Below are positions 7,239-44,470 of a stretch of 47,045 bases of DNA, piece by piece (the first letter of the stretch is position 1; each line of letters begins with the position of its first letter). The notes beneath the pieces were generated by a model. That model searched no databases, was not told the DNA's origin, and saw only the letters and a list, made by a program, of their open reading frames with translations. Source of the DNA: Bacteroidota bacterium (GTDB lineage: Bacteria; Bacteroidota; Bacteroidia; UKL13-3); NCBI GenBank assembly GCA_947507965.1, contig CANNQU010000018.1, positions 1-47,045 on the forward strand, read 5' to 3'. Made by a program: the position numbers and the translations under genes.

Positions 7239-9014
7239 TTATTGAAGTGTAAGCGTTATATATATATCCGTTTGAGTTTCGATAGTGGCAGTTTTCTCAT
7301 ACGAGCGTGCCTTAATAGTAAAGGTTTTCATGCCTATGGGGTTTCTCAGGTAATTCATTAATTCAACTTCCGGGATAATAGGATTTATATAAACCCGCTC
7401 ATTTCCTTCTTCCTTAATCGACTTGCCTCCTTCTATGAGAAATGAAAAACCGGGTATTTTTATTCCGTCCTCGGTGGAGTTCACCCATTTTTTATCCTGG
7501 CAGTTGTAGTTCCTTATGTTAACCACTCCTGGCGATGGCCTGAAGCTTCCGGCCTCAAGACTAAGCTGAGCAAAATGACTCGCATTCGTAAGAGGTACCG
7601 GAATAATATCTTCCCTATCTTTATCGTTTTGTACTAATGGCGTGGGCTTAAAATCATCTTTCGAAGGATCATATTTATAAATACTAATCATGGTAGTAAC
7701 AATATAATCGCTTATGGTTCCACCTCCATCGGAAGTGCTTACAAGTAGGAATTTATCATCACATATTGAATATGCCTTTCTAGAAAAAGAACACGTTACC
7801 GGCGCGTGCATAATACCGGTAGGTTGGGCGGCTGTTGGCTTAAACAAATCGCTATTCCCATCCATTAAAACACAGCCACCTCTTGTAGTACAATAGTCAA
7901 TATTTTGAGTTTTCTCTTCCAACCTATTGAACAGCACATTGTTAAACGACAACATTTGATCTACGCTATAATCCTGCACCAGCTCTGTTCTAGCAATAAC
8001 TTTTTGGTTATTATCAAACTCTTTTTCAATGGTAACGCCCGTAACCTTAAGCGTTACATTAAATTCTTCCCTAGGCTTGGAAACCTTAATCGCTATATTC
8101 TCATTGAGTTGGTCAGGCCGATCGCTAGGCAGATCGTATTTATAGGATACGTTAATCGATTCCTCGGTGTTTTCATCAGGGGCGGTCCATACAAAATAGG
8201 CAATGCCTTCGGTATTCGTGTGCAACTCCGAATGGTCCACTTTCCCCTTTTGGGCGGTAACCATAATCTTTCGGTCTTTTAATGGAACCCCATCACAATC
8301 TTGCAAAACAAAGGTAATAACCTTTTGTTCGTTGCTTTTCGCCGTATAGCTTTTTTTCATCACTATTTTATTTGCCAAGGTGCTCTCTTGTTCCATAAAA
8401 TCGGGATTAAAAGCCATATTATTAGTACCATCCCTTCTTTCCTTTTCAAATGCATAAATGATTGAGGCGAACGATATTTGACCGTGCCCACCGAGAAGTT
8501 CCAACACCATAGAATTCCCTGCTATCCCTAAATCGCTGGCATAATCAATGGTAAGCAACAATCCATTATGCACTACATGTCGTCGTGCATCCAGAATGAT
8601 CAAGTTGGCTATAAAACGACCCTTATCACTGCTGACTACCTCACCAGAAATGGAATAATCGATTCTCCCTTGTGGTTCTAATGGCATTGGCTGGTTCTTG
8701 TATCTATCCCAATCGGGTCGGGACGGGTTGGAGGCATCCGAATTGATCCCGTTGGAACGGGAACTGTAATCAAGGAACCGGAAACATTCGTGGCCCGATT
8801 TGCCGCTGATAATATTATAAATAGTTGAAATATAATGGTGGGTAAGAGAATGCAACGCATTCCAAGTAATTAATTCCTTGGGGTCGGTGGGCTTAGGCAC
8901 TCTAATAACCACATCATACATGGCGATGGCCCTTTCACGACATATTTTATCGCATTGCGAGTTTGCCTGATCATAAATAAACAAATAAAACAACAAAAGA
9001 GAAAGTAAGCGCAT
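7239..9014 (-). CDS. Secreted protein of unknown function with an Ig-like domain
   Basis: 591 residues from the ATG at 9014, which begins a good signal peptide (M-R-L-L-S-L-L-L-F-Y, cleavage near A-N-S-Q). The frame is open to 9089 but the extension lacks a signal. About residues 225-315 look like a bacterial Ig-like (Big_1-like) domain: V-I-T-F-V-L-Q-D-C-D-G-V-P-L followed by a N-T-E-G-I-A-Y-F-V-W segment. The rest matches nothing I know. Several cysteines suggest disulfides. There is no T9SS sorting domain and no lipobox, so it is probably periplasmic or released. It is codirectional with the MoxR cluster and may be its first gene. Confidence 0.75.
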   Translation of the reverse strand: MRLLSLLLFYLFIYDQANSQCDKICRERAIAMYDVVIRVPKPTDPKELITWNALHSLTHHYISTIYNIISGKSGHECFRFLDYSSRSNGINSDASNPSRPDWDRYKNQPMPLEPQGRIDYSISGEVVSSDKGRFIANLIILDARRHVVHNGLLLTIDYASDLGIAGNSMVLELLGGHGQISFASIIYAFEKERRDGTNNMAFNPDFMEQESTLANKIVMKKSYTAKSNEQKVITFVLQDCDGVPLKDRKIMVTAQKGKVDHSELHTNTEGIAYFVWTAPDENTEESINVSYKYDLPSDRPDQLNENIAIKVSKPREEFNVTLKVTGVTIEKEFDNNQKVIARTELVQDYSVDQMLSFNNVLFNRLEEKTQNIDYCTTRGGCVLMDGNSDLFKPTAAQPTGIMHAPVTCSFSRKAYSICDDKFLLVSTSDGGGTISDYIVTTMISIYKYDPSKDDFKPTPLVQNDKDREDIIPVPLTNASHFAQLSLEAGSFRPSPGVVNIRNYNCQDKKWVNSTEDGIKIPGFSFLIEGGKSIKEEGNERVYINPIIPEVELMNYLRNPIGMKTFTIKARSYEKTATIETQTDIYITLTLQ

Positions 9015-9038
9015 GATAACGTATCGTTTTAAGTTTAA

Positions 9039-9046
9039 CAAATATA
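9039..9046 (-). promoter_or_regulatory. -7 element of the 591-residue secreted protein gene
   Basis: Read on the minus strand, this is TATATTTG, an exact TAnnTTTG match. It predicts a start near 9035 and a leader of about 20 nt before the ATG at 9014. No clear -33 TTG was found. It may drive the whole MoxR cluster downstream. Confidence 0.5.
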
Positions 9047-9228
9047 CTAATTTCGCGGATACGTTACGTATCGATGCTCTATCGTCCAATAATTCTGCAT
9101 TATTCCTGCCATCCTTATTTTCTCCTCAATGCTTCTACCCAGTTGGCTATACTACGTGAATTAGTAATTAGAATGTAAGGTTGAATGCTTCCTTTGAAAT
9201 GTGCCTTATTACAGATGAATGCAAATAG

Positions 9229-9252
9229 AAAAAAGCCCTATTCACTGGGCTC
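9229..9252 (-). terminator. Intrinsic terminator at the end of the CDF transporter gene
   Basis: On the minus strand AGCCC (9238-9234 is the 3' arm as GGGCT) forms a 5-6 bp GC-rich stem around an 8-nt loop and is followed by a run of six T. The stem arms lie at 9234-9238 and 9247-9251, so the hairpin overlaps the stop codon of the transporter gene. Confidence 0.55.
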
Positions 9253-10107
9253 GATATGTATTAACACATGACCCAATTGAGGCATCTCTGCACGTAAGGT
9301 ATCTTTTAATTTATGCGCGATATCATGTCCTTCTTTCACTGTTATCGTGGCATCCACCGACGCATGAAGGTCAACCTGGTATTTCATTCCGGCCTTGCGT
9401 ACAAAGCATTTCTCGGTATCAATAACCCCTTCCACCTTTATGGCCACAACTCTAATCTCGTCAATTAATTCATCATATACATGCTCATCCATAATTTCGC
9501 CAAGCGCCGGCCTGAAAATCAGATAGCTATTATAGAGAATAAAAGCCGAAGCAAAAAGAGCAGCCCAGTCGTCGGCCGTTTCGTAGCCAGTGCCCCCAAG
9601 CAAGGCGATAGATATTCCAATGAAGGCCGCAACTGAGGTTATGGCATCGCTTCGATGATGCCAAGCATCGGCTTTTAAAGAAGAGCTGTTGGTTTCCTTG
9701 CTTTTTTGAACGACCAAACGATAGGAAACCTCTTTCCAAACAATAATAGCTCCCAATACGATGAGTGTCCACGATTTGGGCAAACTATGGGGTGTGCCAA
9801 TATTTTTAATGCTCTCGTAGGCAATAACGGTTGCCGAGGTAATTAAAAAGCCAACGACCAAAAAGGTAATCAGTGGCTCGGCACGCCCATGGCCATAGGG
9901 ATGGTTTTTATCTGCTGGCCTATTGGAATATTTTAATCCGAACAAGACGAGGAAAGATGAAAAAATATCGGTGGTCGATTCAATGGCATCGGCTATCAAG
10001 GCATACGAATTGCCAAAATAACCGGCAATTCCTTTTATTAATGCCAGACTTGTATTTCCTACGATACTGAAATACGTTGTTTTGATGGCTGTTTCTTCGT
10101 TGGTCAT
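9238..10107 (-). CDS. Cation diffusion facilitator (CDF) metal efflux transporter
   Basis: 289 residues, the usual length. CDF proteins exchange divalent metal ions (Zn, Fe, Mn, Co) for protons across the inner membrane as dimers. The two canonical metal-site helices are visible: A-D-A-I-E-S-T-T-D at 39-47 and A-W-H-H-R-S-D at 148-154. By position the transport site would be E43, D47, H150, D154, with Glu where zinc transporters usually have His and YiiP has Asp. The loop H-P-Y-G-H-G-R-A-E (69-77) is also typical. The last about 85 residues form the cytoplasmic metal-sensing domain (D-L-H-A-S-V near 251). Metal specificity cannot be decided from sequence. Confidence 0.92.
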   Translation of the reverse strand: MTNEETAIKTTYFSIVGNTSLALIKGIAGYFGNSYALIADAIESTTDIFSSFLVLFGLKYSNRPADKNHPYGHGRAEPLITFLVVGFLITSATVIAYESIKNIGTPHSLPKSWTLIVLGAIIVWKEVSYRLVVQKSKETNSSSLKADAWHHRSDAITSVAAFIGISIALLGGTGYETADDWAALFASAFILYNSYLIFRPALGEIMDEHVYDELIDEIRVVAIKVEGVIDTEKCFVRKAGMKYQVDLHASVDATITVKEGHDIAHKLKDTLRAEMPQLGHVLIHIEPSE

Positions 10108-10261
10108 TCCCCTGGGTATATTAAGCTACTTTTAAATTCAAATTTCACAAAAAATGTACCGGTAAAAATACTCAAATTTGTGAAACTAAATATTAAACCT
10201 TACCGAATGTAAAAAGGCAGCGGCGTTGTTTTAATTAAAATTTATGAACTGATAAAATGAT

Positions 10262-10269
10262 TATTTTTG
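10262..10269 (+). promoter_or_regulatory. -7 element of the VTT-like gene
   Basis: TATTTTTG is an exact TAnnTTTG match, 28 nt upstream of the ATG at 10298, giving a leader of about 25 nt. No convincing -33 element at the expected distance. Confidence 0.4.
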
Positions 10270-10297
10270 CCATTGTACTAACTTATAAAGTTTAACC

Positions 10298-10891
10298 ATG
10301 TGGTGGCAATATCTTTACGTTTTTTTAGGAGCATTTCTGTTTGATGTCGTTCCATTTCCATTCCCACCGGCATTCACGATCATGGTTTTTTTACAAATTA
10401 TGTTCGGACTTAATATCTGGTGGGTCATCGTTATTGGCGTTGCTGCATCCATTTTAGGCAGATACGTGCTCACCTTATATATTCCTTTCATCGCAGGTAA
10501 AATATTTAAACCTTCTAAAAATGAAGACGTTCAGTTTCTCGGTAAAACATTGAAAGAGAAAGGATGGAAAAGCCAGTCGGTAATACTTGCTTACTCGTTA
10601 TTGCCATTGCCAACAACGCCACTCTTTGTAGCTGGAGGTATGGCTAAAATCAAACCACTTTATATCATACCCGCATTCTTCGTTGGCAAGTTCACCAGCG
10701 ATACGATTGCGGTACATCTCGGAAAATATGCCACCGAAAATGCGGAAAGTATACTTCATGGGGCTGTTTCGTGGCAATCGGTTCTAAGCTTGACGGTTGG
10801 CTTACTTTTAATTAGTGCTTTGCTTTTTATTGATTGGCGATCACTGATACAGAAGAAACAATTCCAACTTAATTTCAGAATCTGGAAATAA
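10298..10891 (+). CDS. VTT/SNARE-associated-like small membrane protein
   Basis: 197 residues with about five hydrophobic segments. The arrangement of a short re-entrant-like Pro-rich segment (F-P-F-P-P-A-F near 21-27), a central G-x-x-x-S-x-L-G-R helix, a basic loop, then Y-S-L-L-P-L-P-T-T-P-L-F-V-A-G-G-M near 101-117 followed by a G-K-x-x-x-D-T-I helix is like the VTT (DedA/YqaA/SNARE-associated) superfamily, whose members include lipid scramblases and flippases. The identification is by overall pattern; a direct family hit was not possible. It is a single-gene unit divergent from the CDF gene. Confidence 0.6.
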   Translation: MWWQYLYVFLGAFLFDVVPFPFPPAFTIMVFLQIMFGLNIWWVIVIGVAASILGRYVLTLYIPFIAGKIFKPSKNEDVQFLGKTLKEKGWKSQSVILAYSLLPLPTTPLFVAGGMAKIKPLYIIPAFFVGKFTSDTIAVHLGKYATENAESILHGAVSWQSVLSLTVGLLLISALLFIDWRSLIQKKQFQLNFRIWK

Positions 10892-11000
10892 GCCTACTCA
10901 TCGCTGATGGCTCGACGCGATGACGACCATAAAAATTAATGCATTTTAAACTTCTAGGCACGGCCACAACACTCCCATGCCCTGCCAAATTATATTCAAA

Positions 11001-11012
11001 ATTAGCGCTAAT
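11001..11012. other. Perfect 12-bp palindrome upstream of gyrB
   Basis: ATTAGCGCTAAT is a perfect palindrome about 150 nt upstream of the gyrB start and about 100 nt upstream of the nearest promoter-like motif (TACCTTCG at 11110-11117, one mismatch from TAnnTTTG). It could be a protein-binding site or chance in AT-rich DNA. Confidence 0.25.
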
Positions 11013-11056
11013 GTATGCGTAATAATCACCGTCGTTAACCCATTAAATTAAGGTGA

Positions 11057-13144
<2,088 letters not shown>

Positions 13145-13222
13145 AAAAAGGAAGCCTTTGCTTTGCCTGCCATTTGAATGGTAATTTAACGATGACTTCC
13201 ATTCTCGCTCGCCTTTTGTATT

Positions 13223-13251
13223 CGAATGCCTAATGTAACGATTAGCATTCG
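13223..13251. other. Hairpin downstream of gyrB without a T-tract
   Basis: CGAATGC at 13223-13229 pairs with GCATTCG at 13245-13251, and the stem extends through CTAAT/ATTAG with one bulged C. No T-run follows, so it is not a standard intrinsic terminator. It lies in the 257-nt gap between convergent gyrB and the CotH gene and may stabilise or end either transcript. Confidence 0.35.
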
Positions 13252-13401
13252 TAACCATTACGATAGATTAAACATGATGCGGAAAGAATAAATGTAGTGA
13301 TGTGTTTCTTTACGCAATAAGCCGACGTTCTGGTATAATTAAGACTCTAATTTCTTTATCATTTTACAAAAAAAAATCGAAATTAGTGCAATTAAAATCC
13401 T

Positions 13402-15669
13402 TCACTCCACCACTATTCTATATCGCGAGCCTTCATTGATTTGCACAAAATATACTCCAGGAGCGATCTTCGACATATCGATGGTTTCGGAAAGAACGCC
13501 TTCATACGCTTTATTAATTAACACAATACCAAGCATATTTTGCACTGAGATGGTTCGAATTAATGCAGAACCGGTGATACTAACATGGCCGTTTATTGGG
13601 TTAGGATAAATACGAAAATCATCTCTACCTTCACTTTTTGCTGAGGAGATCATCAGGGCTTGCGCACAATTATTTTTAGCCTTTGGGGTGGGCTTGGTGA
13701 GCACATAAAATGAACCCACCCCATCATTACATCGACCATAACTACTGTCGGGTTTTTGCGCCTCAAACTGCACGCTATCGAGTACCAAACCATTGGCATA
13801 ACCGATCATTAAAGTTTCACCTGTAGAAGATAATTTAAAGTTGGCATGGAGCCCCAGCTGCGTAATATCGGCATCGAGCCAAACCATCATATAGGCGTTA
13901 GCCGCTAGCTGTGTACCCGACGGAAACGCCCATTTTGCAGGCACGAAGGGATCATCTGAGAGATAAACACCGGAAAGATTGATCGATGCATTCGTGGTGT
14001 TCTTTAACTCAACCCAATCATCAAACTCACCAGCCAGGTCGGCGATAACACTATTATTGGATGCCATCAATTCATTAATCACCACACTCTTTGCAGGAAG
14101 TGGAGGAATAGAGGCCAGTAAGGTGTAAAATTCATGTTCTGCCCTCGCCGGAGAAAATATCCCGGCATTAACATTTTCCGCATAAATATAATACTCCATC
14201 TTACCCGAAGTAACTTTAAAGTATGTGCCGTAAACACCATCTCCTGCAAGGCTATCATGATGTAAACCATCGTCGTACATCGTCCATTTTGTAAAATGTT
14301 TCGCCGTTAAATCTCGTATGCCCAAAGTAGCAAAGTTTGCGTTTATCAATTTCGTACGAATCCAAACGGTATCATTCAAAGAAGGTGTTAATCGATCAAG
14401 TGTAATGGTGGTTATCGCTGGTGGCACCTGAACAAATTCGGTTGTCGATAAGAGGTAATTTTTTCGTGCATCGAGCAGTTGCTTGATTCCTATCTTCAGG
14501 TTAGCGCCTCCGATGGAAGCCGATGTATCTAAATTCGTTTGAAACGCTGAGTAGGTATAGAACTTCAAGCTGTCGGCCTGTACGCTACTATCTATTACGG
14601 TTCGCAAGGATGCGCCTAAGGCGTAATATTGATTCGTGGTAATGGCCTCTGACACCATGGTACGTAGATGTGCTATATATTGTTTCTTATACCTTGGAAT
14701 GGAGAGTAATTTAAGCATTAAGGGGTGAGAAGCAAGTGTTGCATTTGCCATAGGGGCCATTTGCTGCATCTGAATAAAACTTAGTGGCGAGCCTGCAACC
14801 AATTGCACAAAGCCACCCATGCACATATTGATATCCCAAATAATGGAGTTAAATTTATTATAACTATCCATGTATTCGTAATAGTTTTGCGTCGTGCTTC
14901 CGGTATAACTATCCAAATTAATAAAGAGGTTATTAAAAGCAAACATCCACATGGCCCTATCAACATCCCATAAGGTATCGATATTACGCTGTAATTCCAT
15001 CTGGGCCTGTATAAATGGCTTCCACCCCCAGTCACTCTTTATTTCATAAATCCGGGCATAATAGGTAATACTATCCGACATATTGGTGACGGCCGAAGGC
15101 AATAAATTGGGTGAACCGGGAGAGCCCGGTACGGGTTTGTTACATTTAAAAAAAGGTCCGTCTTTTTCGTAGAAATGATTGGCACAAAAAGTTTTCGTGA
15201 TGGCTTCCTGATTCGTATATAACCCCCTATACACCCCATTGACAAATAAATTTACATAATTTCCTTGGGGGCAGTGCATATAATTTCCAAGGATTTCGTA
15301 CCCTATCACTTCTCTCAAAAAAGAGGGGTCGGCAAAGTTATTTCCTAGTTTAATATCCGTAAAGCCTTGATACTCTTGGTTTGTTTTCACATTATCAAGC
15401 TCAATATGCCATGGATTCTTTTTATTGTTTATATTAAAAGAACTATTGCCTTTATATTTAACGCCCACACTATCGAAGCTCACTCCATTAATTTTAACTT
15501 GAGTTGCAATCATAAAGTTCTCGGTAATACCGGTAGAATCCATCTTGGCATCCCAATTACTCATCGGAAAAAAAACTTCTACCTTTTGGATGGTATTGAG
15601 GTCATAGAAATTTTGAGCTCCGGCATTAAAAAACAAAAAAAGAGAAATAACAAAAACACCCGGTTTCAT
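13402..15669 (-). CDS. Secreted CotH-like protein with lamin-tail domain and T9SS sorting domain
   Basis: 755 residues from the ATG at 15669, which starts a signal peptide cleaved near N-A-G-A-Q; the longer open frame to 15738 has a second hydrophobic stretch and is less likely. Residues about 25-410 form a CotH domain (atypical kinase fold; in Bacillus CotH phosphorylates spore coat proteins) with the motif I-I-W-D-I-N-M-C-M-G-G at 276-286. About 420-515 is a beta-rich linker, about 528-660 a lamin-tail domain (V-V-I-N-E-L-M-A-S-N), and about 685-755 a type A T9SS sorting domain beginning I-Y-P-N-P. It should be exported and attached to the surface. Substrate unknown. Confidence 0.88.
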   Translation of the reverse strand: MKPGVFVISLFLFFNAGAQNFYDLNTIQKVEVFFPMSNWDAKMDSTGITENFMIATQVKINGVSFDSVGVKYKGNSSFNINNKKNPWHIELDNVKTNQEYQGFTDIKLGNNFADPSFLREVIGYEILGNYMHCPQGNYVNLFVNGVYRGLYTNQEAITKTFCANHFYEKDGPFFKCNKPVPGSPGSPNLLPSAVTNMSDSITYYARIYEIKSDWGWKPFIQAQMELQRNIDTLWDVDRAMWMFAFNNLFINLDSYTGSTTQNYYEYMDSYNKFNSIIWDINMCMGGFVQLVAGSPLSFIQMQQMAPMANATLASHPLMLKLLSIPRYKKQYIAHLRTMVSEAITTNQYYALGASLRTVIDSSVQADSLKFYTYSAFQTNLDTSASIGGANLKIGIKQLLDARKNYLLSTTEFVQVPPAITTITLDRLTPSLNDTVWIRTKLINANFATLGIRDLTAKHFTKWTMYDDGLHHDSLAGDGVYGTYFKVTSGKMEYYIYAENVNAGIFSPARAEHEFYTLLASIPPLPAKSVVINELMASNNSVIADLAGEFDDWVELKNTTNASINLSGVYLSDDPFVPAKWAFPSGTQLAANAYMMVWLDADITQLGLHANFKLSSTGETLMIGYANGLVLDSVQFEAQKPDSSYGRCNDGVGSFYVLTKPTPKAKNNCAQALMISSAKSEGRDDFRIYPNPINGHVSITGSALIRTISVQNMLGIVLINKAYEGVLSETIDMSKIAPGVYFVQINEGSRYRIVVE

Positions 15670-20602: not shown

Positions 20603-21907
20603 CTATTGATGCAGTATTACGCGGAGGGTTTGTATTGTATTGCCGGATTCAAGTCGTACAAGGTAGAGGCCTTTGTTCCAATTCAAAACAGGTAGTACCA
20701 GGCTACGCCCATTAACGGCTTGACGTAGTACTTCCTTTCCGTTATCATCATAAATGGAAATCAATCCGGATGAAATAGGATTTATAAAATCGAAACGTAG
20801 CACATCACGCGCAGGATTCGGGTAAACTTTAAAACCATTGGCTTCGCTGCCCGAACCCCGTTCGATGCCTGAGGCAAGCGAATCGCAGCTTGCTATTTTC
20901 TTTTGATCGCGATAACGAGAGGAACTGCAGGTATTGCACATCACCCGTTTCAGGAAACAACTGCCATTCTCGATCACATAATTTTGATTGGAGCCACAAT
21001 GGGTGGTTCCCGGATTGATATGCAGTTCGGCACAGCTTCCATTTTGGATGGCCTTCCTATAGATAAGTGCAGAGCCATCTACAGTAAACAAATTATAACA
21101 GTTTCCGGTACAATTGATTACATAGCCATGGTATGCCGGCACGACACAGTCGGACGAATCGTGGAAACTAACCACTGCGATATCAGCGTTATTGGCCATA
21201 ATTGAAGTATCGAAAACGGCACCACAAAAATCAAGAACCCCTTTTATCTTATACCTTTTAGGATAACTATTCCCTGAGGAATCTAAAGATCCTAATAACG
21301 TATGAACCCAACTAAGTTTCGCATCGGCCTCAGCTTGGCTGGTAAAGGCAGCATTCATTGCGGTAATGCTTCCGGCACTACCTCCACTCACAAAAACATA
21401 ATTGGTATCAATTTTATACTTTGCACTTTTAAAACTCAGATAACGCAGCGATGCATTAAAATCTTGAACGGCACGATAGGTAGCATTATACATACTTATA
21501 TAATCGTTACATAAACAAAGCAAGGCAGCGGTGCCATTCACACAGTTCCATCCGACTCGATAATCGATGGTGGCCGCTACATAACCCCGCTTGGCAAATT
21601 CCTTGCAGAAATAGGTGAAATCCGTGCGACTCCCATCAAGGAAACCGCCACCAAAAGCAAAAACAATAAGGGGTCGTTTTGGTAATGTCTCAATGGCATC
21701 ACTTGGATAATAAACATCCATTCGCAAAGAATCCATTACATTACTATTCCAATGTTTTGCTACAGCAAATACAACATTGGTATCTTTCTCTATCTGTGAA
21801 TCAGAAAAAAGCGGCGTTGATGAAAATCGATTTTTTATACAGTAATTTTGAGAAGATGCTGAAAAAATCAAGAGTAAAAAGAAAGTTGCCGTAAGAAAAA
21901 GTTTCAT
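20603..21907 (-). CDS. Secreted alpha/beta hydrolase (esterase-like) with T9SS sorting domain
   Basis: 434 residues from the ATG at 21907, which begins a signal peptide (cleavage near S-A-S-S-Q); the open frame to 22048 adds 47 residues with no signal. The oxyanion-hole-like motif F-G-G-G-F is at 85-89 and the nucleophile elbow G-G-S-A-G-S at 175-180 with S177; the acid is probably D253 (H-D-S-S-D) and the base H303 (T-T-H-C-G). This resembles carboxylesterase/feruloyl esterase-type alpha/beta hydrolases. Residues about 358-434 form a type A T9SS C-terminal domain starting Y-P-N-P. At least a dozen Cys suggest disulfide stabilisation outside the cell. Substrate unknown. Confidence 0.85.
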   Translation of the reverse strand: MKLFLTATFFLLLIFSASSQNYCIKNRFSSTPLFSDSQIEKDTNVVFAVAKHWNSNVMDSLRMDVYYPSDAIETLPKRPLIVFAFGGGFLDGSRTDFTYFCKEFAKRGYVAATIDYRVGWNCVNGTAALLCLCNDYISMYNATYRAVQDFNASLRYLSFKSAKYKIDTNYVFVSGGSAGSITAMNAAFTSQAEADAKLSWVHTLLGSLDSSGNSYPKRYKIKGVLDFCGAVFDTSIMANNADIAVVSFHDSSDCVVPAYHGYVINCTGNCYNLFTVDGSALIYRKAIQNGSCAELHINPGTTHCGSNQNYVIENGSCFLKRVMCNTCSSSRYRDQKKIASCDSLASGIERGSGSEANGFKVYPNPARDVLRFDFINPISSGLISIYDDNGKEVLRQAVNGRSLVLPVLNWNKGLYLVRLESGNTIQTLRVILHQ

Positions 21908-21929
21908 ATAATACAGAAGGTGAATGCTA

Positions 21930-21937
21930 CAAATATA
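21930..21937 (-). promoter_or_regulatory. -7 element of the secreted hydrolase gene
   Basis: TATATTTG on the minus strand, an exact TAnnTTTG match, predicting a start near 21926, 19 nt before the ATG. Confidence 0.5.
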
Positions 21938-22153
21938 TAATTTATACCATAAATTTCGCATGGGTTTATTCTTGGTAAACCATCGAAGGGGGTATTCCGA
22001 ATTTGATGTGCTAGCGAAAATTAAATGATCCGCCAAGACCGTATCCATGATGTTTCGTCATTCCTATTCTGAAGCCCTTTTTTCGCAGATCCTAGATCGA
22101 AGAACAAGGTACCATTGACGTATTTTGATGCTAACGTAATTTCCTTTAAGAAT

Positions 22154-27214: not shown

Positions 27215-27959
27215 CGCAACCTAGCATTTTTTAGCACCTTTTTTGGATACCTTCCACTGAAAAAATGGAGCATTGGAAACGGTTGAGTCCAACTATTTAA
27301 GTGACGTTTAATTTATACACTCACATGCAGTATACATTATTTCATTTTTAGCGCTTTATTTCAGAAAAGCCATTAACACCAGAAAGCCCTGTTTTCAATG
27401 GTTTGCATGGCCATTTATTGCCACACATCGTAGCCCCAAAAAAGATATATTTATTATATTTTTTGTTTGGAAATGCCCTGTATATCCTCCTATATTTGAA
27501 TCGCAAACCGCAATCAGGATTGCCTTTTGATAACTGATTTTCTCTTCTTCAGTTCAATTGTCCGCTGGTTACTTTTAACCAACTTTTATTAAGCTGTGAG
27601 CAAACTATCATTGCCTCCCTATTTTCAATTTCGCTTTTTGGGTATTATCATTTTATGTGGTTTTACGTATTAACCGAAATGCTCGAAAATGTTAGGTGTC
27701 GCAAATCATTGATACGGAAACACTACCCTGATAAGAATCACGAGTAGCCAATTTTACGGTATCCGATAAATTTCAAGTTTAGTCCGGCTCCCCTGCTTAA
27801 GAATAATCTTCTGAGATAGACGATTAAAAAACACCATTTGTTGTTTTCCATTTCTAAATCATTCTATCCTTTCTATCGCACGAAGAATTAATACAGAACA
27901 GAATATAAACCTATTTGTCTTTTTATGAATCTCGCATAAAATTAAATACCCGGAGGAAA
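27215..27959. other. 745-nt non-coding gap before the RCC1 gene
   Basis: I find no gene, RNA or exact -7 element in this stretch. It is AT-rich. One small hairpin is visible: TGGTTA (27566-27571), loop CTTT, TAACCA (27576-27581), followed by ACTTTTA. A possible Shine-Dalgarno GGAGG (27952-27956) sits just before the RCC1 start. A long leader or regulatory region for the RCC1 gene, or decayed sequence, are both possible. Confidence 0.5.
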
Positions 27960-30719
27960 ATGAAAAACAAAATTATAGCATTACTAATAACGATAGCGCT
28001 CCTGCCTTCAATCGACACGATTGCTCAAATCAATCGGGCCAACATTAAAAAATCAGTCGCTTATAAAGCAAATTACCAAAGAATCGCATCGGGTAGTACA
28101 GCCAATCATACCTTAGAAATAAGAGGCGGCACGCTATGGTCCTGCGGCGCAAATTCAAATGGGCAAATAGGCGATGGAACAACCCTGGACAGGAATAATT
28201 TTGTTCAAATAGGAATAGATAATAAATGGTTGATGGTTACCGCTGGCAGGAGCCATACCGTTGGCTTGAAAACCGATGGGACCCTATGGACTTGGGGGAA
28301 TAATTTGAACGGACAAATTGGCGACGGGACCCTTATCGAAAGGCTAACCCCAACACAGGTAGGCAGCGATAATAAATGGATTGGCATTGCAACAGGCGAC
28401 AGTCTAAGCTTTGCATTGAAATCGAACGGTACCTTATGGGCATGGGGAAACAATACGGATGGCCAATTGGGCGATGGAACCACCACTCACAGAATTGCCC
28501 CACTACAAATAGGTTTCGATAATCAATGGATACTCATTGCATCAGGCTATAACCATACGCTCGGATTAAAATCCGACGGAACTATTTTCACTTGGGGAAA
28601 CAACGACTATGGACAGCTCGGTGATGGCACCACCATTCAAAAAACAAGTCCCATTCAAGTAGGTACCGACACCAAATGGGTTGGTATTTCGGCTGGTGGT
28701 AATCACAGCCTTGGATTAAAATCTGATGGAACGCTATTTGCGTGGGGGAATAATGCAGATGGACAACTCGGTGATGGATCCATCACACAAAAAAACGATC
28801 CGACACCAATAGGTACCAACCATAACTGGGTAGCCATAGCTGCAGGCAGCAATCATACCCTCGGCTTGCAATCAAACGGTACCCTTTGGTCTTGGGGAGA
28901 CAATGCCTATGGACAACTCGGCAATGGTTCCAATTCCAGCCAAACCACCCCTTTGCCATTAGGTAACGACCATAACTGGGTAGCTATTATCGCTGGAGGA
29001 GGCCATAGCATTGGCTTAAAATCGGATGGGGCCGCGATGGCTTGGGGGTTGAATACAAACGGACAGTTGGGTGATGGAACCACCATAAATCGCAATTCCC
29101 CAACGCAAACAGGAACAGATAATAAACTGATGAGTGTGGCGGCCGGTGCGGGTCATAGCTTAAGTTTAAGAGCCAATGGTACACTATGGGCTTGGGGCTT
29201 TAATAATCGAGGGCAGTTAGGCGATGGCACCGACACCAACAGAACTAGCCCCGTACAAGTAGGAACCGATACAAAATGGGTTGGTGTTGCTGCAGGTAAC
29301 TCGCACTCCCTTGCCCTGAAATCGGATGGCACCCTATGGGCCTGGGGCTGGAATGGCAGCGGGCAACTTGGGGATGAAACAAATGCCGATAAAAATAGTC
29401 CGATACAAATTGGTATCGATACGAATTGGGTAAGTATAGCTGCAGGCCAATACACTTCTCTCGCCCTAAAAGCCGATGGAACGCTATGGGCATGGGGCTA
29501 TAATGGTAACGGACAAATTGGAGATGGAACGAATACGGAACGAACGATTCCAACACAAGTGGGCACAGAAGATACATGGATAAGTGTTGCAGGTGGACAA
29601 TTTTATTCCATTGGCCTAAAATCAAATGGAACCATCTGGGCTTGGGGCGACAATACCCAGGGACAATTAGGAGATGGAACGAATATTAGCCGTAATTCAC
29701 CGGTACAACTGGGTACCGATACCAAGTGGGTGGGTATTGCTGCAGCCTATTATCACTGCCTTGGTTTAAAATCTGATGGTACACTTTGGGCTTGGGGTTA
29801 TAATGTTTATGGGCAATTAGGCGATGGTACCCGTTCGGACCAAAACCACCCAATAGCTATTGGATCGGGAAATAATTGGATCGGGATAGCTGGAGGTTAT
29901 CTTCATAGCCTCGGATTAAAATCGGATGGAACCTTTTGGGCATGGGGTTTAAATGCCTACGGGCAATTAGGCGATGGAACCAATGCCGACCAAATAACAC
30001 CAACCCAAATAGGAACTGAAACAAATTGGTTAAGCATCAGTGCAAATGGTCAACACAGTATAGGATTGGGTTCAGAAAGAAACCAGTTTTGTACCACCGG
30101 GTGGAATAATTTTGGGCAGTTGGGGGATGGAACAACGATTAACCAAAATGTTTTTACCTGTAATAGCTTTTCTCCATTACCTATTAAATTGCTCTATTTC
30201 AATGCCACTTGCAACAAGAACAAGGTTAACTTTATATGGGCAACGGCCACCGAAACAAATAATGCGTATTTCACGTTAGAACGTACCACAGATGGAAAAG
30301 AATTTCAGGAAATAGGCAGGATCAAAGGCGCTACTAATAGTATTCAAACGCTTAAATATTCTTTTACCACCAATAATACTCAAAATACAGATTACTACTA
30401 CCGCCTTAAGCAAACCGATTTTAGTGGTCATTTCAAGTATTCAAAAATCACCGCTACCCATTGTTCTGAAAATAACATAGCACGTATATTCCCAAATCCA
30501 AATAAGGGCACCGTTACCATTGAGTCGAATGCTAAAGTCGAATATATGATTCTAAATGAACTCGGCCAAACCATCCAACGGATTGCGTTAAACGCTGATA
30601 ACGCCTACACGATAACCATCGAAAACCTTGCTACTGGAATCTATTTCATTGTCAGCACGAACCCTGCTTACAATGAATCGAATCAACCGATATCGCAAAA
30701 AATGGTGGTGGTAAGATAA
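27960..30719 (+). CDS. Secreted RCC1-repeat beta-propeller protein with T9SS sorting domain
   Basis: 919 residues from the ATG at 27960, which opens a signal peptide (M-K-N-K-I-I-A-L-L-I, cleavage near T-I-A-Q) and follows GGAGG by 3 nt; the frame opens earlier with TTG. Residues about 45-735 hold 14 RCC1 repeats with a period of about 50 residues (core G-Q-L-G-D-G-T and L-K-S-D-G-T-L-W-A-W-G). Since one RCC1 propeller has seven blades, 14 repeats suggest two propellers. About 739-838 is a fibronectin-like domain usual next to T9SS domains (L-P-I-K-L-L-Y-F), and about 842-919 a type A sorting domain (I-F-P-N-P-N). Probably a surface-binding or adhesion protein; ligand unknown. Confidence 0.9.
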   Translation: MKNKIIALLITIALLPSIDTIAQINRANIKKSVAYKANYQRIASGSTANHTLEIRGGTLWSCGANSNGQIGDGTTLDRNNFVQIGIDNKWLMVTAGRSHTVGLKTDGTLWTWGNNLNGQIGDGTLIERLTPTQVGSDNKWIGIATGDSLSFALKSNGTLWAWGNNTDGQLGDGTTTHRIAPLQIGFDNQWILIASGYNHTLGLKSDGTIFTWGNNDYGQLGDGTTIQKTSPIQVGTDTKWVGISAGGNHSLGLKSDGTLFAWGNNADGQLGDGSITQKNDPTPIGTNHNWVAIAAGSNHTLGLQSNGTLWSWGDNAYGQLGNGSNSSQTTPLPLGNDHNWVAIIAGGGHSIGLKSDGAAMAWGLNTNGQLGDGTTINRNSPTQTGTDNKLMSVAAGAGHSLSLRANGTLWAWGFNNRGQLGDGTDTNRTSPVQVGTDTKWVGVAAGNSHSLALKSDGTLWAWGWNGSGQLGDETNADKNSPIQIGIDTNWVSIAAGQYTSLALKADGTLWAWGYNGNGQIGDGTNTERTIPTQVGTEDTWISVAGGQFYSIGLKSNGTIWAWGDNTQGQLGDGTNISRNSPVQLGTDTKWVGIAAAYYHCLGLKSDGTLWAWGYNVYGQLGDGTRSDQNHPIAIGSGNNWIGIAGGYLHSLGLKSDGTFWAWGLNAYGQLGDGTNADQITPTQIGTETNWLSISANGQHSIGLGSERNQFCTTGWNNFGQLGDGTTINQNVFTCNSFSPLPIKLLYFNATCNKNKVNFIWATATETNNAYFTLERTTDGKEFQEIGRIKGATNSIQTLKYSFTTNNTQNTDYYYRLKQTDFSGHFKYSKITATHCSENNIARIFPNPNKGTVTIESNAKVEYMILNELGQTIQRIALNADNAYTITIENLATGIYFIVSTNPAYNESNQPISQKMVVVR
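28158..30145 (+). repeat. 150-nt tandem repeat array inside the RCC1 gene (14 copies)
   Basis: The G-Q-[IL]-G-[DN]-[GE] core recurs 14 times with a spacing close to 150 nt, and phrases such as GATGGAACC and TGGGCNTGGGG recur at DNA level. Copies differ at many third positions, so they are old or diverging; neighbouring copies could still recombine. Confidence 0.85.
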
Positions 30720-38404: not shown

Positions 38405-41400
38405 ATGAAAAACATCTACCTCCTTCTCTGTGCCTTAATTCTTGCCATTAGCTCCGACGCACAGAATACCTATTTTTATTCCAACACGGTGCATCACTTT
38501 GAAACAGTCGTCAATGGTAATCAGCAATGGAAATATTTTGTAGGCCTCTCCGAGCCAGACAGTAATTGGCGAAAGCTAAACTTTAATGATGCTTCCTGGT
38601 CATCGGGCAATGGCGGAATCGGCTACGGCGACAATGACGACGCCACGGTTACGGCCAATTGCAGCAGTCTTTTTATGCGTAAACAATTTTCAATTACCGA
38701 TACCTCAAAAATAATCGAATTGCTCTTAAGTATCGATTACGATGATGGCTTTGTGGCATATATCAATAATGTAGAAGTAAAACGTAAAAACATCGGTGTT
38801 GTTGGCGTAATTCCAACGTATAATACCCTCGCCACTGCCGCTCACGAAGCTGGTTTGTATCGAGGTGTAAAAGCCGAATACTTCTTTATCGATAAAGAAA
38901 CCATCAAGGCTCTAGTAAAAAACGGCACTAATGTATTCTGTATACAAATCCATAACAATACCACCAGTGGTGGCGATAATGACCTCTCAGCGCTGCCTTA
39001 CCTAATGGTAGGATTAAACAATAGCAGCGTCGTTTATGGAGCAAACCCTACTTGGTTTGCCCCCCCATTTTACAGCCATCTGCCCATCGTACAAATACTC
39101 ACCAATAATCAAGTTATTATTAATGAGCCAAAGAAAACAATGTGGATGCGTATTATATCGAATGGAAACAAACAAAATCACATGACCGATTCGGCTACCG
39201 AATATAGTGGAAAAGCCGGGGTGGAACTGCATGGAGCCTCTTCTATAAATTTTCCTCAAAAGTCGTATGGCGTTACCACCTACGATTCGATGGCATTACC
39301 CGATAATGTGAAAATTTTTGATTTCCCGAAAGAAAGCGACTTTATACTCTACGCGCCGTGGAATGACAAAACCTTGATGCGTAACGTGATGATCTATGAC
39401 TTAGCAAGAAAAATGGGCTGGTATGGGCCACGATGTAAATTTGTAGAAGTGTTTCTCGACACCCAATATGTAGGGGTTTATGTGATGATGGAGAAAATAA
39501 AAATTGACAAAGAAAGAGTTGCGATTTCACAAATAAAACCAAATCATAATGCCGGCGACTCCCTCACCGGGGGATACATTTTCAAAGTAGATTGGAACGC
39601 GGATCCTGGCTTAGGCACTTGGAATTCACATATTGTTACCTATAACGGACAAGCCAAGAGTGTGCGATTTCAAACCTCTGATCCCAATGGACTGGATATC
39701 ACCGGCGCACAGCGTAACTATATTGAGAATTATATCGACTCGTTTGAACAAAATTTAATCGGCACTAATTTAACCAATCTAACAACAGGTTATCGGAAAT
39801 ATATTGATGTCGGTTCTTTCATCGACTATTTTATTCTATCTGAAATTACGCATAATGTTGATGCCTATAGGGCAAGCACCTATTTCTTCAAAAATAAAGA
39901 TTCACAAGGGGGGAAATTAGTTATGGGTCCGGTATGGGATTATAACTTCAGTTTGGGAAATGCCTCCTTCTGTAACTCCAATGATACCAGTGGCTGGTCG
40001 GGCTGTACCGCCAACAATACGCTCTGGTGGTTCGATCGGTTGAACTCAGAAAACTATTACCGCGATCAATTACGATGTCGATGGACGAGTTTATACTACT
40101 CGTTACTTTCGACAGAAAATATCAACTCCTATGTCGACTCCATTGCAGCCTACCTTTACGTTCCTCAGCTACGCCATTTTACACGTTGGGTAATATTGGG
40201 CAGTGACCTCAATAACGGCCATGTCAGTACCGCCTATAGCCAAGAAATATCGTGGCTAAAAAACTGGTATCGAGGTCGAAGCACATGGCTCAACTTATAT
40301 ATGCCTGGGTGGCATAACCCCTGTGCCGAATCGCCTGCGGCCAACAGACTCCTGGTTTCAGAACTAAACTACAATTCTGATAAAAACCTGGATGGTGGTA
40401 ACTGGATTGAATTTTACAATAACTCTTCAGGTGCACTCAATCTGATAAATTCTGTTTTTTCAGCAAATGGTGGGGCTACTTCGAGAAAATTTCCGAATAT
40501 TTCTATCCCTAGTTTCTCCTATCTCGTCATTTGTGAAGACACCGTTCTCTTCAATAAAGTTTATCCCAATGTAAAAAACAAACTGGGGAATCTGGGTTTT
40601 GGCTTTAATAATAATGAAGGAAGGTTAACCCTATATGACATGAATTCATATCCCATTTTTAGCTTTATTTACTCTAACCAATGGCCATGGCCACAGGGTG
40701 CGAATGGAGCAGGGAAAACATTGGAACATTTCGGAATAAACAATTCGTATAGCAGTGCTACCGATTGGTTTGAAGGCTGTATTGGAGGTTCCCCCGGGAG
40801 AGCCTACGGTCGATGCATGCAGGATGTGAATGTGACTGAAATAAACTATACAGCAGCAACTACTCATAATAACGGCGACTGGTTTGAGTTAAAAAACAAT
40901 AGCAATAGCCCTAAAAATATTGGAGGCTATGTATTCAAAGATGAAGATAGCTCTCATAGTTTCGTTTTCCCTCCTAACCTTACGATACAACCCCACGATT
41001 ACTTAATCGTATGTTCGGATACCACCAAGTTTAAATCCTTTAACCCTACGTTTAAAAACCGTATCGGAAATTTCAATTTCGGCATTAGCAATAAAAGCGA
41101 TGCCATACGATTATTTACCAATACCAATTTATTGTACCAGAACATCTATTATACCGACACCGCAGCCCCATGGCCCAATGGTGCCAATGGTACAGGTTAT
41201 ACCATCGAACTAAAAAACGACACCCTCCAATGCGACGTAGGAGGCAACTGGACGCTGGGTTGTTTGTACGGAAGCCCCGGTAAACGCTATCACAAGGTAT
41301 GCAATCCAGGATTAACGGCAAAGGTATCGGTAAGCGAACTTAACCTAAATCCACCATTATACGCCGATGATGGCGGTTGGATAGAGCTTCACAATTTCGA

Positions 41401-44400
41401 CACCTTGGATTTAGACCTTACCGATTTCACCCTTGCACATACTGCGGCAAGCGATACCTCCTATGTTCTAAAAGAAGGAACTATTTTAAAGAAAAACGAC
41501 TATGTAGTGCTTTGTAATGACCTGGTTAAATTCAAGAAATGGCATCCTTTAATTACTAAAACCTATGCCCTCGACAAGTGGAAATTCATTGCCAATGGAG
41601 ACTCTATCGTATTAAAAGATTTTAACGGCAACAGCATCATAAAGATGAAGTCGGCCTTAAATGCCACACTTCTAACAGAAGCCAACGGACTTGGGAAAAC
41701 ATTAGAACTCAAAAAAGACACCTCCAACCTTAATTCGGCATCCAGCTGGTTTGATGGTTGTTTTGCCGGTTCTCCAGGCACTGCATTTAAAAACTGTAAT
41801 AAATCCAAATTGAATTTCTCTGAAATAAATTACAACGCTGATTTAAATTTCAATCAAGGCTTTTGGTTTGAAATAATAAACACCGATACCGTTTCCGTTA
41901 ACTTGGATAACTATTATTTCAGAAAAGCTTTCGACACCACCATTTATCGCTTTCGCAAGAATGTAATACTGGCTCCTAAACAATTCTATGCCATTTCCTT
42001 CGACTCCTCTAAATTTTGTGACGCCAATCCTTTTGTGCAGAACGCCATTTTCATGGCTAATCCAGGCTTCAATATAAAGGGTGATATCATTCAACTTTTC
42101 GACCTCAATGAGCAATGGTTAAATTTACGTTACAAAGATACCTTACCTTTTCCCTTGGCCGCCAACGGAGCGGGTTACACACTAGAAATGATAAACGACA
42201 GCTTGAACCCATTTGAGGCTAGTAGTTTCGCAACCCGTTGTTATGGCGGTTCTCCTGGTACATCATCAATCCTACCTTGTAACCCGGCCCTCACCAGCGA
42301 CATCCATATTACCGAAATAAATTATTTATCAGACGCCAATAGCAATAGCGGATTTTGGTTTGAACTAGAGAACCAATCGACTACTGCACTGCCCTTGTTA
42401 AACTGGCATTTAGCTGGTTTCGATTTAAAAAGAAGCTACCCAATAAATAAAAACATAATGGTGCCGGCAAAAGGTTATTGGGTGTTCGCCACCGACTCCG
42501 TTAAATTCAAGCAGCAGTTTCCTTTGGTAACCAATGTAGCTTTTATACCCCCTCTTCTTTTCACGACCACCGGCGACTCCATAAAACTAGTTGACTATCG
42601 AGGATTCTTGGCTTGTAAAGCTTTTTTCAGTAACGATTCTTTATGGTCGCAAGGGCCCAATGGCTTAGGCTATACGTTGGAAAAAAGAAATACTGTTAAA
42701 AATCCAATCACGCCCCTCGATTGGCAGAGTGGATGCTTAAAAGGCTCTCCGGGAAAGGCCTTTACACCTTGCACGAAACCAACTCTTATCATCTCCGAAA
42801 TAAATTACAAATCGAATAAAACAATGAATTCGGGGCAATGGTTTGAACTTAAAAACACCACGAGCAACGCCCTGAATTTGAGTAGTTATACCTTTAAATT
42901 TAATGCCACCGACTCCTTGAAAATAGGTTACACCCTTCCGGCAAACGATTATATAACCATTGTAAACGATTCCAACTTATTTAAACAACAACATCCCTTT
43001 AGTAGAAACTTTAAATGGATTTCATTCAAGCTGGATACGATAAAAAACGCAATGAAAATTTATGATAATACGGTGCTTATGAACAGTGCTTATTATACAA
43101 TACAAAATGCGACATGGCCTTTGGCCAATGGAGGAGGGTATACACTTGAACTTATTCATGACACGCTAAATGAAGCCGACACGCAATCATGGACTACAGG
43201 ATGTTTAAATGGATCTCCCGGCACGCCGATGCTTTTCCCGTGCAATCCAGCACTAACCTCCGACCTTAGTTTTTCAGAAATAAATTATTTGTCGGATACC
43301 TTTAATAATAGTGGTCAATGGGTGGAACTATTCAATAGATCAAATCAGCCCATTAGTCTTCAAAACTGGGTGGTGCAAAATAGCAGCTTAAATTATTTCG
43401 TATTTACCGAGCCCTTTAGTATTGCGGCTAAGAGTTATATGGTTTTGAGTAATGACACTTCAGCATTTCATGCCATTTATCCTGCGGTGCAACAGGTACA
43501 CTATTTGAATTTAAAACTTTCGGTCATTTCCGATAGTATTTCCTTACGCGATTATGCACAAACTACGGCATGTAAAGCATTTTACAGTAATGCGGCAAAC
43601 TGGTATCAGGGAGCCAATGGAAACGGAAGAACCTTGGAGAGCCTTACAGAATCGAAAAACAACAGCACCGTGGTTGATTGGAAGGAAGGTTGTATTCAAG
43701 GTTCACCGGGCAAAGCCCAGAGTAACTGTGTCGATCGAGTGCTGATAAGTGAATTAAACTACGCCCCACAAAACTCAACCAACGATGGCCAATGGATTGA
43801 GCTCTTCATCACTTCCAATAACACCACCAACATTAGCAAGTTTAGCTTTCGGTCGAACAACACATTAAACTCCTTTGTAGCCACAAAACCAACCCTAAGC
43901 AATACGTATTTGGTTTTATCGGCCGATACAGCAGCCTTTAATAATTATCATTCGTATATAGCAAACAAAGAGCAATTCAGCGCTTTAAGCCTTTCGAACG
44001 GAACTTACCCCTTGGTAATTTACGATCAAAACAATAGAATTCTTCAGTCGATTCAATACAGCTCAATACCACCTTGGGATACATTAGCCAATGGGAAAGG
44101 ATATACTTTAGAATTAATGAAGGACTCTACCAATTTTAGCCGCTCCAATAACTGGAAATCATACTGTAAACGTGGCTCACCTGGAGGTGCAACGGTATCC
44201 CCTTGCGGAAATGCTTTCGGTGTTCCAATACGCAACGTTTTGACGACCCCATTAATTTACCCGAACCCTGCAGGAAATGTGCTAACCATTATTCGAGACC
44301 ATCAGAAGGTAGAGAAGGAAGAATATCGTATTTATGACCTTTTGGGCCGAACACTCGGCTCCGGAAGTTTAATTCATTCAACCACCAATATTGATATTTC

Positions 44401-44470
44401 GCACTTTTTACCGGGTATCTACTTTATACAAATAGAAAACATCCAAGCCCTGAAATTTGTAAAAGAATAG
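38405..44470 (+). CDS. Giant secreted CotH protein with eight lamin-tail repeats and T9SS sorting domain
   Basis: 2021 residues from the ATG at 38405; the frame opens with TTG at 38297 but only the later ATG begins a signal peptide (M-K-N-I-Y-L-L-L-C-A, cleavage near S-D-A-Q). About residues 25-205 form a beta-rich N-terminal domain (S-I-D-Y-D-D-G-F-V-A-Y), about 225-640 a CotH domain (M-M-E-K-I-K-I-D-K-E-R and G-P-V-W-D-Y-N-F-S-L-G at 508-518), about 645-1935 eight lamin-tail repeats (entered separately), and the last about 85 residues a type A T9SS domain (I-Y-P-N-P). It must be a surface protein. Its CotH domain may phosphorylate other exported proteins, or may be only structural. Confidence 0.88.
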   Translation: MKNIYLLLCALILAISSDAQNTYFYSNTVHHFETVVNGNQQWKYFVGLSEPDSNWRKLNFNDASWSSGNGGIGYGDNDDATVTANCSSLFMRKQFSITDTSKIIELLLSIDYDDGFVAYINNVEVKRKNIGVVGVIPTYNTLATAAHEAGLYRGVKAEYFFIDKETIKALVKNGTNVFCIQIHNNTTSGGDNDLSALPYLMVGLNNSSVVYGANPTWFAPPFYSHLPIVQILTNNQVIINEPKKTMWMRIISNGNKQNHMTDSATEYSGKAGVELHGASSINFPQKSYGVTTYDSMALPDNVKIFDFPKESDFILYAPWNDKTLMRNVMIYDLARKMGWYGPRCKFVEVFLDTQYVGVYVMMEKIKIDKERVAISQIKPNHNAGDSLTGGYIFKVDWNADPGLGTWNSHIVTYNGQAKSVRFQTSDPNGLDITGAQRNYIENYIDSFEQNLIGTNLTNLTTGYRKYIDVGSFIDYFILSEITHNVDAYRASTYFFKNKDSQGGKLVMGPVWDYNFSLGNASFCNSNDTSGWSGCTANNTLWWFDRLNSENYYRDQLRCRWTSLYYSLLSTENINSYVDSIAAYLYVPQLRHFTRWVILGSDLNNGHVSTAYSQEISWLKNWYRGRSTWLNLYMPGWHNPCAESPAANRLLVSELNYNSDKNLDGGNWIEFYNNSSGALNLINSVFSANGGATSRKFPNISIPSFSYLVICEDTVLFNKVYPNVKNKLGNLGFGFNNNEGRLTLYDMNSYPIFSFIYSNQWPWPQGANGAGKTLEHFGINNSYSSATDWFEGCIGGSPGRAYGRCMQDVNVTEINYTAATTHNNGDWFELKNNSNSPKNIGGYVFKDEDSSHSFVFPPNLTIQPHDYLIVCSDTTKFKSFNPTFKNRIGNFNFGISNKSDAIRLFTNTNLLYQNIYYTDTAAPWPNGANGTGYTIELKNDTLQCDVGGNWTLGCLYGSPGKRYHKVCNPGLTAKVSVSELNLNPPLYADDGGWIELHNFDTLDLDLTDFTLAHTAASDTSYVLKEGTILKKNDYVVLCNDLVKFKKWHPLITKTYALDKWKFIANGDSIVLKDFNGNSIIKMKSALNATLLTEANGLGKTLELKKDTSNLNSASSWFDGCFAGSPGTAFKNCNKSKLNFSEINYNADLNFNQGFWFEIINTDTVSVNLDNYYFRKAFDTTIYRFRKNVILAPKQFYAISFDSSKFCDANPFVQNAIFMANPGFNIKGDIIQLFDLNEQWLNLRYKDTLPFPLAANGAGYTLEMINDSLNPFEASSFATRCYGGSPGTSSILPCNPALTSDIHITEINYLSDANSNSGFWFELENQSTTALPLLNWHLAGFDLKRSYPINKNIMVPAKGYWVFATDSVKFKQQFPLVTNVAFIPPLLFTTTGDSIKLVDYRGFLACKAFFSNDSLWSQGPNGLGYTLEKRNTVKNPITPLDWQSGCLKGSPGKAFTPCTKPTLIISEINYKSNKTMNSGQWFELKNTTSNALNLSSYTFKFNATDSLKIGYTLPANDYITIVNDSNLFKQQHPFSRNFKWISFKLDTIKNAMKIYDNTVLMNSAYYTIQNATWPLANGGGYTLELIHDTLNEADTQSWTTGCLNGSPGTPMLFPCNPALTSDLSFSEINYLSDTFNNSGQWVELFNRSNQPISLQNWVVQNSSLNYFVFTEPFSIAAKSYMVLSNDTSAFHAIYPAVQQVHYLNLKLSVISDSISLRDYAQTTACKAFYSNAANWYQGANGNGRTLESLTESKNNSTVVDWKEGCIQGSPGKAQSNCVDRVLISELNYAPQNSTNDGQWIELFITSNNTTNISKFSFRSNNTLNSFVATKPTLSNTYLVLSADTAAFNNYHSYIANKEQFSALSLSNGTYPLVIYDQNNRILQSIQYSSIPPWDTLANGKGYTLELMKDSTNFSRSNNWKSYCKRGSPGGATVSPCGNAFGVPIRNVLTTPLIYPNPAGNVLTIIRDHQKVEKEEYRIYDLLGRTLGSGSLIHSTTNIDISHFLPGIYFIQIENIQALKFVKE
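40337..44209 (+). repeat. Eight tandem lamin-tail domain repeats (about 160 residues each)
   Basis: Each unit starts with a strand like I-S-E-I-N-Y followed by G-x-W-[FIV]-E-L, and ends with G-x-G-x-T-L-E-L, W-x-x-G-C and G-S-P-G. The starts fall near 40348, 40827, 41321, 41809, 42303, 42784, 43264 and 43739, spacing 475-495 nt. Divergence between units is high at DNA level. The Cys pair in each (W-x-x-G-C and the following C about 10-13 residues on) may form one disulfide per repeat. Confidence 0.85.

Follow-up and report, generated by a model that had tools for sequence, protein, structure and literature searches.

A predicted CotH-family kinase with a type IX secretion tail carries eight lamin-tail domains that resolve into four two-domain modules

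Examination of a 47,045-nucleotide stretch of a Bacteroidota genome (contig CANNQU010000018.1 of assembly GCA_947507965.1; the whole stretch is called the window here) draws attention to a gene for a 2021-residue protein, P0001, which combines a CotH kinase-like domain, eight lamin-tail domains (LTDs) and a C-terminal sorting domain of the type IX secretion system (T9SS). Sequence comparison with relatives shows that the LTDs are not eight equal repeats but a two-LTD module in four copies. We propose, with the chances about evenly balanced, that P0001 is a CotH enzyme secreted by the T9SS and displayed at the cell surface on a modular LTD stalk. The proposal draws on the domain content, a conserved pair of aspartates, the export tail and its machinery, and the two-LTD module, as judged by comparison of sequences and predicted structures.

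The open reading frame (38405-44470, + strand) comprises 2021 codons and a stop. A longer reading begins at TTG 38297, but ATG 38405 is preferred as the start because, judged by eye, it yields a signal peptide. Pfam recovers in this one protein the three elements that an initial sequence-only reading had named, namely CotH (residues 273-629, E 1.8e-56), LTD in eight stretches (E 5.7e-75) and Por_Secre_tail (1951-2014, E 7.9e-13); the parts of P0001 are all of known kinds. The LTD family (PF00932) scores 249.2 bits for the whole protein against a cut-off of 34.3, the first and last of the eight LTDs clearing it only together with their neighbours. That reading overlooked a further domain at about residues 24-212. 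Residues 20-212 have no Pfam match at E-values up to 0.01, and the model of the domain matches many glycoside hydrolase family 2 (GH2) enzymes (Foldseek and VIA-align, Z about 10-11 over 140-150 residues). Lacking a Pfam match, it is said here to share the GH2 sugar-binding fold and is not placed in a family; from the model it may bind sugars. Its mean identity in the genus is 71.7%, and that of the signal peptide 27.5% (genus identities throughout are from five members and nine of their ten pairs, one near-identical pair being omitted). The features of P0001, with positions in the window, are:

38405..38461, +, signal peptide, residues 1-19 (translation inspected by eye)
38474..39040, +, N-terminal beta-sandwich domain, residues 24-212, GH2 N-terminal sugar-binding fold (Foldseek, VIA-align)
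39209..40312, +, CotH kinase domain, residues 269-636 (Pfam 273-629; PF08757, E 1.8e-56)
39380..39382, +, R326, invariant in 18/18 aligned CotH domains
39491..39493, +, E363 (MEKI), invariant in 18/18, aligns with a Glu of 5JD9
39860..39862, +, D486 (NVDAY), aligns with the Asp of NFDGF in Bacillus cereus CotH
39938..39940, +, D512 (VWDYN), aligns with the Asp of PWDYD in B. cereus CotH
40343..40822, +, LTD1, module 1, odd type, Cys spacing 11
40823..41323, +, LTD2, module 1, even type, Cys spacing 12, region matching 4Q1Z (Z 11.5)
41324..41809, +, LTD3, module 2, odd type
41810..42304, +, LTD4, module 2, even type
42305..42784, +, LTD5, module 3, odd type
42785..43267, +, LTD6, module 3, even type
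43268..43741, +, LTD7, module 4, odd type
43742..44209, +, LTD8, module 4, even type, weakest Pfam match
44249..44467, +, type A T9SS sorting domain, residues 1949-2021 (PF18962 E 7.9e-13; TIGR04183 E 1.1e-10)

By our own domain cuts the LTDs are 156-167 residues long, close to the 160 residues first estimated. All eight have two cysteines flanking a GSPG motif, which are predicted to form disulfide pairs, and all sixteen cysteines are conserved in 5/5 orthologues of the genus. Of the W-x-x-G-C...C pattern that had been described as conserved, the strict W-x-x-G-C part is found in six of the eight (LTD4 has FATRC and LTD8 WKSYC). Over the GSPG motif the cysteine spacing runs 11, 12, 11, 12, 11, 12, 11, 12 in all five eight-LTD proteins. 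It is 11, 12 three times over in three of four six-LTD relatives (the fourth, L038, begins with 10) and in the paralogues L042 and L045, and 11, 12 in both two-LTD genes of a distant relative, L062. In six long paralogue arrays (L014, L044, L049, L051, L052 and L054) most spacings are 11, and 12 occurs at the final LTD or the final two.

A phylogenetic tree was made of 77 LTDs, drawn from the eight- and six-LTD proteins, L062 and a CotH protein on contig C7 of the same genome. One branch (support 97/97) parts the odd from the even LTDs of the eight- and six-LTD proteins: all 32 odd LTDs stand on one side, joined by one C7 LTD, and opposite them are all 32 even LTDs together with the four from L062 and the remaining eight from C7. 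The split persists (89/80) when the cysteine tails are trimmed and the nine C7 rows removed, and of 1400 balanced labellings of the positions only odd/even and its mirror are separated by a branch, in both trees. Together the spacing and the tree indicate that the real unit is the LTD pair, not the single repeat assumed in the sequence-only reading. LTD1 of L062 lies on the even side, which makes descent from a single ancestral module less straightforward. Parity is also partly present in control arrays of other paralogues (12/15 odd and 0/15 even in one set, 20/20 odd and 8/16 even in another), so that pairing may predate the P0001 lineage. The evidence is divided on whether LTD6-7 arose by duplication of LTD4-5: a 4+6 clade is recovered (96/89), the best tree lacks 5+7, and a topology test leaves both 5+7 (p 0.266) and the control grouping 4+5 (p 0.205) unrejected. 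No earlier report of the two-LTD module was found in the open-licence literature searched; the module changes how the LTDs of such arrays are to be counted, and where to cut them in structural studies.

The CotH domain scores 192.5 bits with PF08757 (cut-off 23.8). Single-sequence phmmer searches of the PDB were too weak to pick up its likeness to solved structures (a chance match only for the whole of P0001, and a best E of 0.19 for CotH alone), and this likeness emerged with a profile of the aligned CotH domains, which at E 6.1e-24 matched B. cereus CotH (PDB 5JD9/5JDA) along the greater part of the domain. In the structure model of residues 20-1135 (mean pLDDT 67.4), the CotH domain superposes on 5JD9 with Z 28.5 and a root-mean-square deviation of 3.7 over 340 residues, and on 5JDA with Z 28.4 over 335 residues. 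When 18 CotH domains from the P0001 genome and its relatives are aligned, nine columns are invariant, including R326, E363, D486 and D512. The CotH protein of B. subtilis is inactive as D228Q or D251A (excerpt of PMC7821199); we take D486 to correspond to D228 and D512 to D251, the numbering following motif order through the B. cereus alignment. Loss of catalytic residues, which would have told against the kinase-like domain of the sequence-only reading, is not seen, as D486 and D512 are kept in 18/18 rows, and the fold match points the same way. Across the genus the domain has a mean identity of 77.7%, as against 50-55% for LTD4-8 and 43.4% for the sorting tail, a level at which it is evidently under strong constraint. 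By sequence, then, P0001 is a predicted kinase, with an intact-looking domain that keeps the catalytic aspartate pair.

The sorting tail lies above the cut-off in both PF18962 and TIGR04183, which mark it as type A. The genome encodes SprA (2422 bits) and PorU (1211 bits) and holds 130 matches to the T9SS tail family. These findings agree with the earlier view of an exported protein, and P0001 apparently reaches the cell surface. PorU cleaves type A cargo and then either attaches it to lipopolysaccharide or releases it (excerpt of PMC10202324), so attachment of P0001 to the surface is likely rather than assured. Outside the window, two further open reading frames (G000:C27:27699-32522, 1684 residues, and G000:C2:49353-54248, 1698 residues) give partial PorU matches under the cut-off and are possible PorU paralogues.

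The number of LTDs was compared among relatives after setting aside L001-L013 and L018-L037, these being shorter excerpts from the same loci or from related ones. A count in related strains, which the sequence-only reading had advised, gives eight LTDs in 5/5 genus members (the window and L058-L061, the latter apparently the genus members G001-G004, as their N-termini agree). Behind the same N-terminal and CotH core there are six LTDs in the family members L038, L039, L040 and L041, two in L062 and none in L063 and L064. The two genes of L062 are neighbours (8935-12102 and 12110-15259), each with the N-terminal domain, CotH, two LTDs and a T9SS tail, and are apparently a tandem duplication. 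In one family member (genome G008, contig C6; L039, L042 and L043) a single 189-kb contig holds four genes that combine CotH with an LTD array.

Taken as a whole, the proposed course of events would be as follows. P0001 would enter the periplasm by means of a Sec signal peptide and pass through the SprA translocon under the guidance of its type A C-terminal domain. Next, PorU would remove the tail and, by analogy with Porphyromonas, could join the new C-terminus to surface lipopolysaccharide. With the C-terminus at the membrane, the eight LTDs, as four two-LTD modules, would form a rod whose far end holds the CotH-fold kinase beside the carbohydrate-binding-like domain, and the kinase might modify extracellular proteins or glycans. 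Anchoring as opposed to release, rod-like stacking, sugar binding by the N-terminal domain, catalysis and the nature of the substrate are the parts of this scheme that we infer. A stalk fits the layout of P0001, since with a C-terminal anchor the LTD array would separate the kinase from the membrane. Also in keeping with a stalk are the variable number of LTDs (0, 2, 6 or 8) behind a constant N-terminal core, and the fact that LTD3-8 are less conserved in sequence than that core and LTD1-2. An extension that we consider improbable is that the two-LTD module serves as a brick and the array as a ruler, with lineages setting the reach of the kinase by 0, 1, 3 or 4 modules; if so, the distance between kinase and membrane would be an evolved, quantised trait, set by the addition of whole modules.

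Several observations weigh against the proposal. Within the genus, CotH and LTD2 are the most conserved parts of P0001: mean identity is 78.2% for LTD2, 69.4% for LTD1, 59.3% for LTD3 and 50-55% for LTD4-8. The conservation of LTD1 and LTD2 (69-78%, about like the core) suggests that these two have a role beyond that of a spacer. As to an Ig-like fold of the LTDs, residues around LTD2 match 4Q1Z (Z 11.5), but the model of residues 1136-2021, comprising LTD4-8 and the tail, is poor (pLDDT 54.5, pTM 0.28), and rod-like stacking is therefore without support from it. The ability of PorU to release its cargo (excerpt of PMC10202324) belongs here as well. Two remaining points concern catalysis. The residue two positions after D512 is Asn in P0001 and throughout the genus, as opposed to Asp in B. 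cereus CotH; in the 18-row alignment this position is Asn in 11 rows (P0001 among them), Asp in six and Thr in one. Furthermore, ATP is generally not expected outside the cell, which makes the phosphate donor a problem for a surface kinase.

In an alternative reading the LTD array would itself be the working part, a multivalent adhesin for a polymer such as a polysaccharide, extracellular DNA or a surface glycan, to which CotH is secondary. The GH2-like N-terminal domain would then assist, and CotH would modify the bound target or P0001 itself. We judge this to be distinctly less probable than the stalk, although it is the best placed of the alternatives. It is consistent with the CotH-like conservation of LTD1-2 and with the sugar-binding-like fold modelled for the N-terminal domain, and the LTDs of salt-tolerant DNases have been associated with DNA binding (excerpt of PMC4486849). 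ExeM lacking its LTD is inactive in vitro, but the same LTD is dispensable on plates (excerpt of PMC6085458). The other arguments against an adhesin come from the array, in that LTD3-8 are the fastest-changing of the LTDs and LTD number differs between relatives.

The catalytic objections lead instead to the idea that CotH is a pseudokinase acting as a scaffold, or another kind of transferase (for instance of AMP) or one using a donor other than ATP. The Asn after D512 and the expected lack of ATP at the cell surface speak for it, and other chemistries on kinase folds are known, as in SidJ (excerpt of PMC6858067). On the other side stand the retention in every aligned row of both aspartates needed by B. 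subtilis CotH, and the position of CotH, with LTD2, as the most conserved part of P0001; we rate this idea as unlikely, slightly more so than an adhesin. As for a recent, unstable and strain-variable tandem array, the in-register copies and the variation in LTD number between genera would suit it, but it is rejected within the genus as extremely improbable, given that the eight LTDs share just 24-41% pairwise identity, that each position forms its own clade across the five genomes in the LTD tree, and that all five genus members have eight.

P0001 is one of several such proteins in its genome. The 3.36-Mb assembly (147 contigs) contains five CotH domains and 23 LTD matches. The sequence-only reading had counted at least two candidate CotH kinases; the second of these is indeed present in the window with its single LTD, on the minus strand, but the genome-wide total is five. 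Two of the proteins concerned are:

13402..15669, -, second CotH protein of the window, 755 residues, with CotH, choice-of-anchor X, one LTD and a T9SS tail (Pfam, NCBIfam)
contig C7, 3173-9922 (L014), ten-LTD CotH protein, 2250 residues, with nine LTDs after CotH and one before, and Fn3_assoc and chitobiase C-terminal-like modules

Eight LTDs had been regarded as a long array, and the notion that the number is exceptional is rejected in view of the ten in the C7 protein. With at least one LTD in 272/295 genomes of the class, and this ten-LTD protein, neither LTDs nor long arrays are rare here. An 1140-residue protein on contig C1 (L017, 2730-6149) has three LTDs and Big_5 domains without CotH, and its match to the CHU_C T9SS signal is slightly under the cut-off.

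Around the gene, the window shares with L060 a divergent mreB, a downstream major facilitator superfamily (MFS) gene and a response regulator, and shares mreB and the MFS gene with L059, judged by size and order. This common neighbourhood looks like shared ancestry of the region and not a functional link. Elsewhere in the window, 27915-30719 (+) encodes a long secreted repeat protein of 934 residues that has a T9SS tail and matches RCC1 repeats in 14 stretches (E 3.9e-147), and 20603-22048 (-) an alpha/beta hydrolase (BD-FAE) with a T9SS tail.

Phosphorylation outside bacterial cells has been little studied. P0001 offers a defined test case: its kinase core is conserved, the catalytic residues are mapped, and relatives carry 0, 2, 6 or 8 LTDs behind that core, a series that poses the question of whether LTD number sets reach, binding or nothing.

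In the open-licence literature searched, the pairing of 'lamin tail' with 'T9SS' gave no match. The component architectures have precedents. The Bacillus CotH spore-coat kinase (5JD9, 5JDA; PF08757) shares with P0001 its fold (Z 28.5) and both catalytic aspartates; P0001, at 16% identity in the structural alignment, adds the T9SS tail, the GH2-like domain and eight LTDs. Cthe_0239 of Clostridium thermocellum (LTD, LTD, Fn3, CotH) likewise joins CotH and LTDs in one secreted protein, but has two LTDs, listed before CotH, and Fn3, and its setting is cellulosomal as opposed to the T9SS tail of P0001 (excerpt of PMC6083626). For LTDs in tandem within one bacterial protein, credit is given to Mans et al. 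2004 and to Dittmer and Misteli 2011 (excerpt of PMC6085458); the prokaryotic proteins of Mans et al. have several LTDs, as does P0001, where the LTDs are joined to CotH and arranged in two-LTD modules. The C7 protein of the same genome has CotH, an LTD array and a T9SS tail as in P0001, but differs in that nine of its LTDs follow CotH and one precedes it, in its Fn3_assoc and chitobiase C-terminal-like modules, and in a cysteine spacing of mostly 11. CotH-LTD fusions and tandem bacterial LTDs are thus already in print, and the two-LTD module is a small structural finding added to them.

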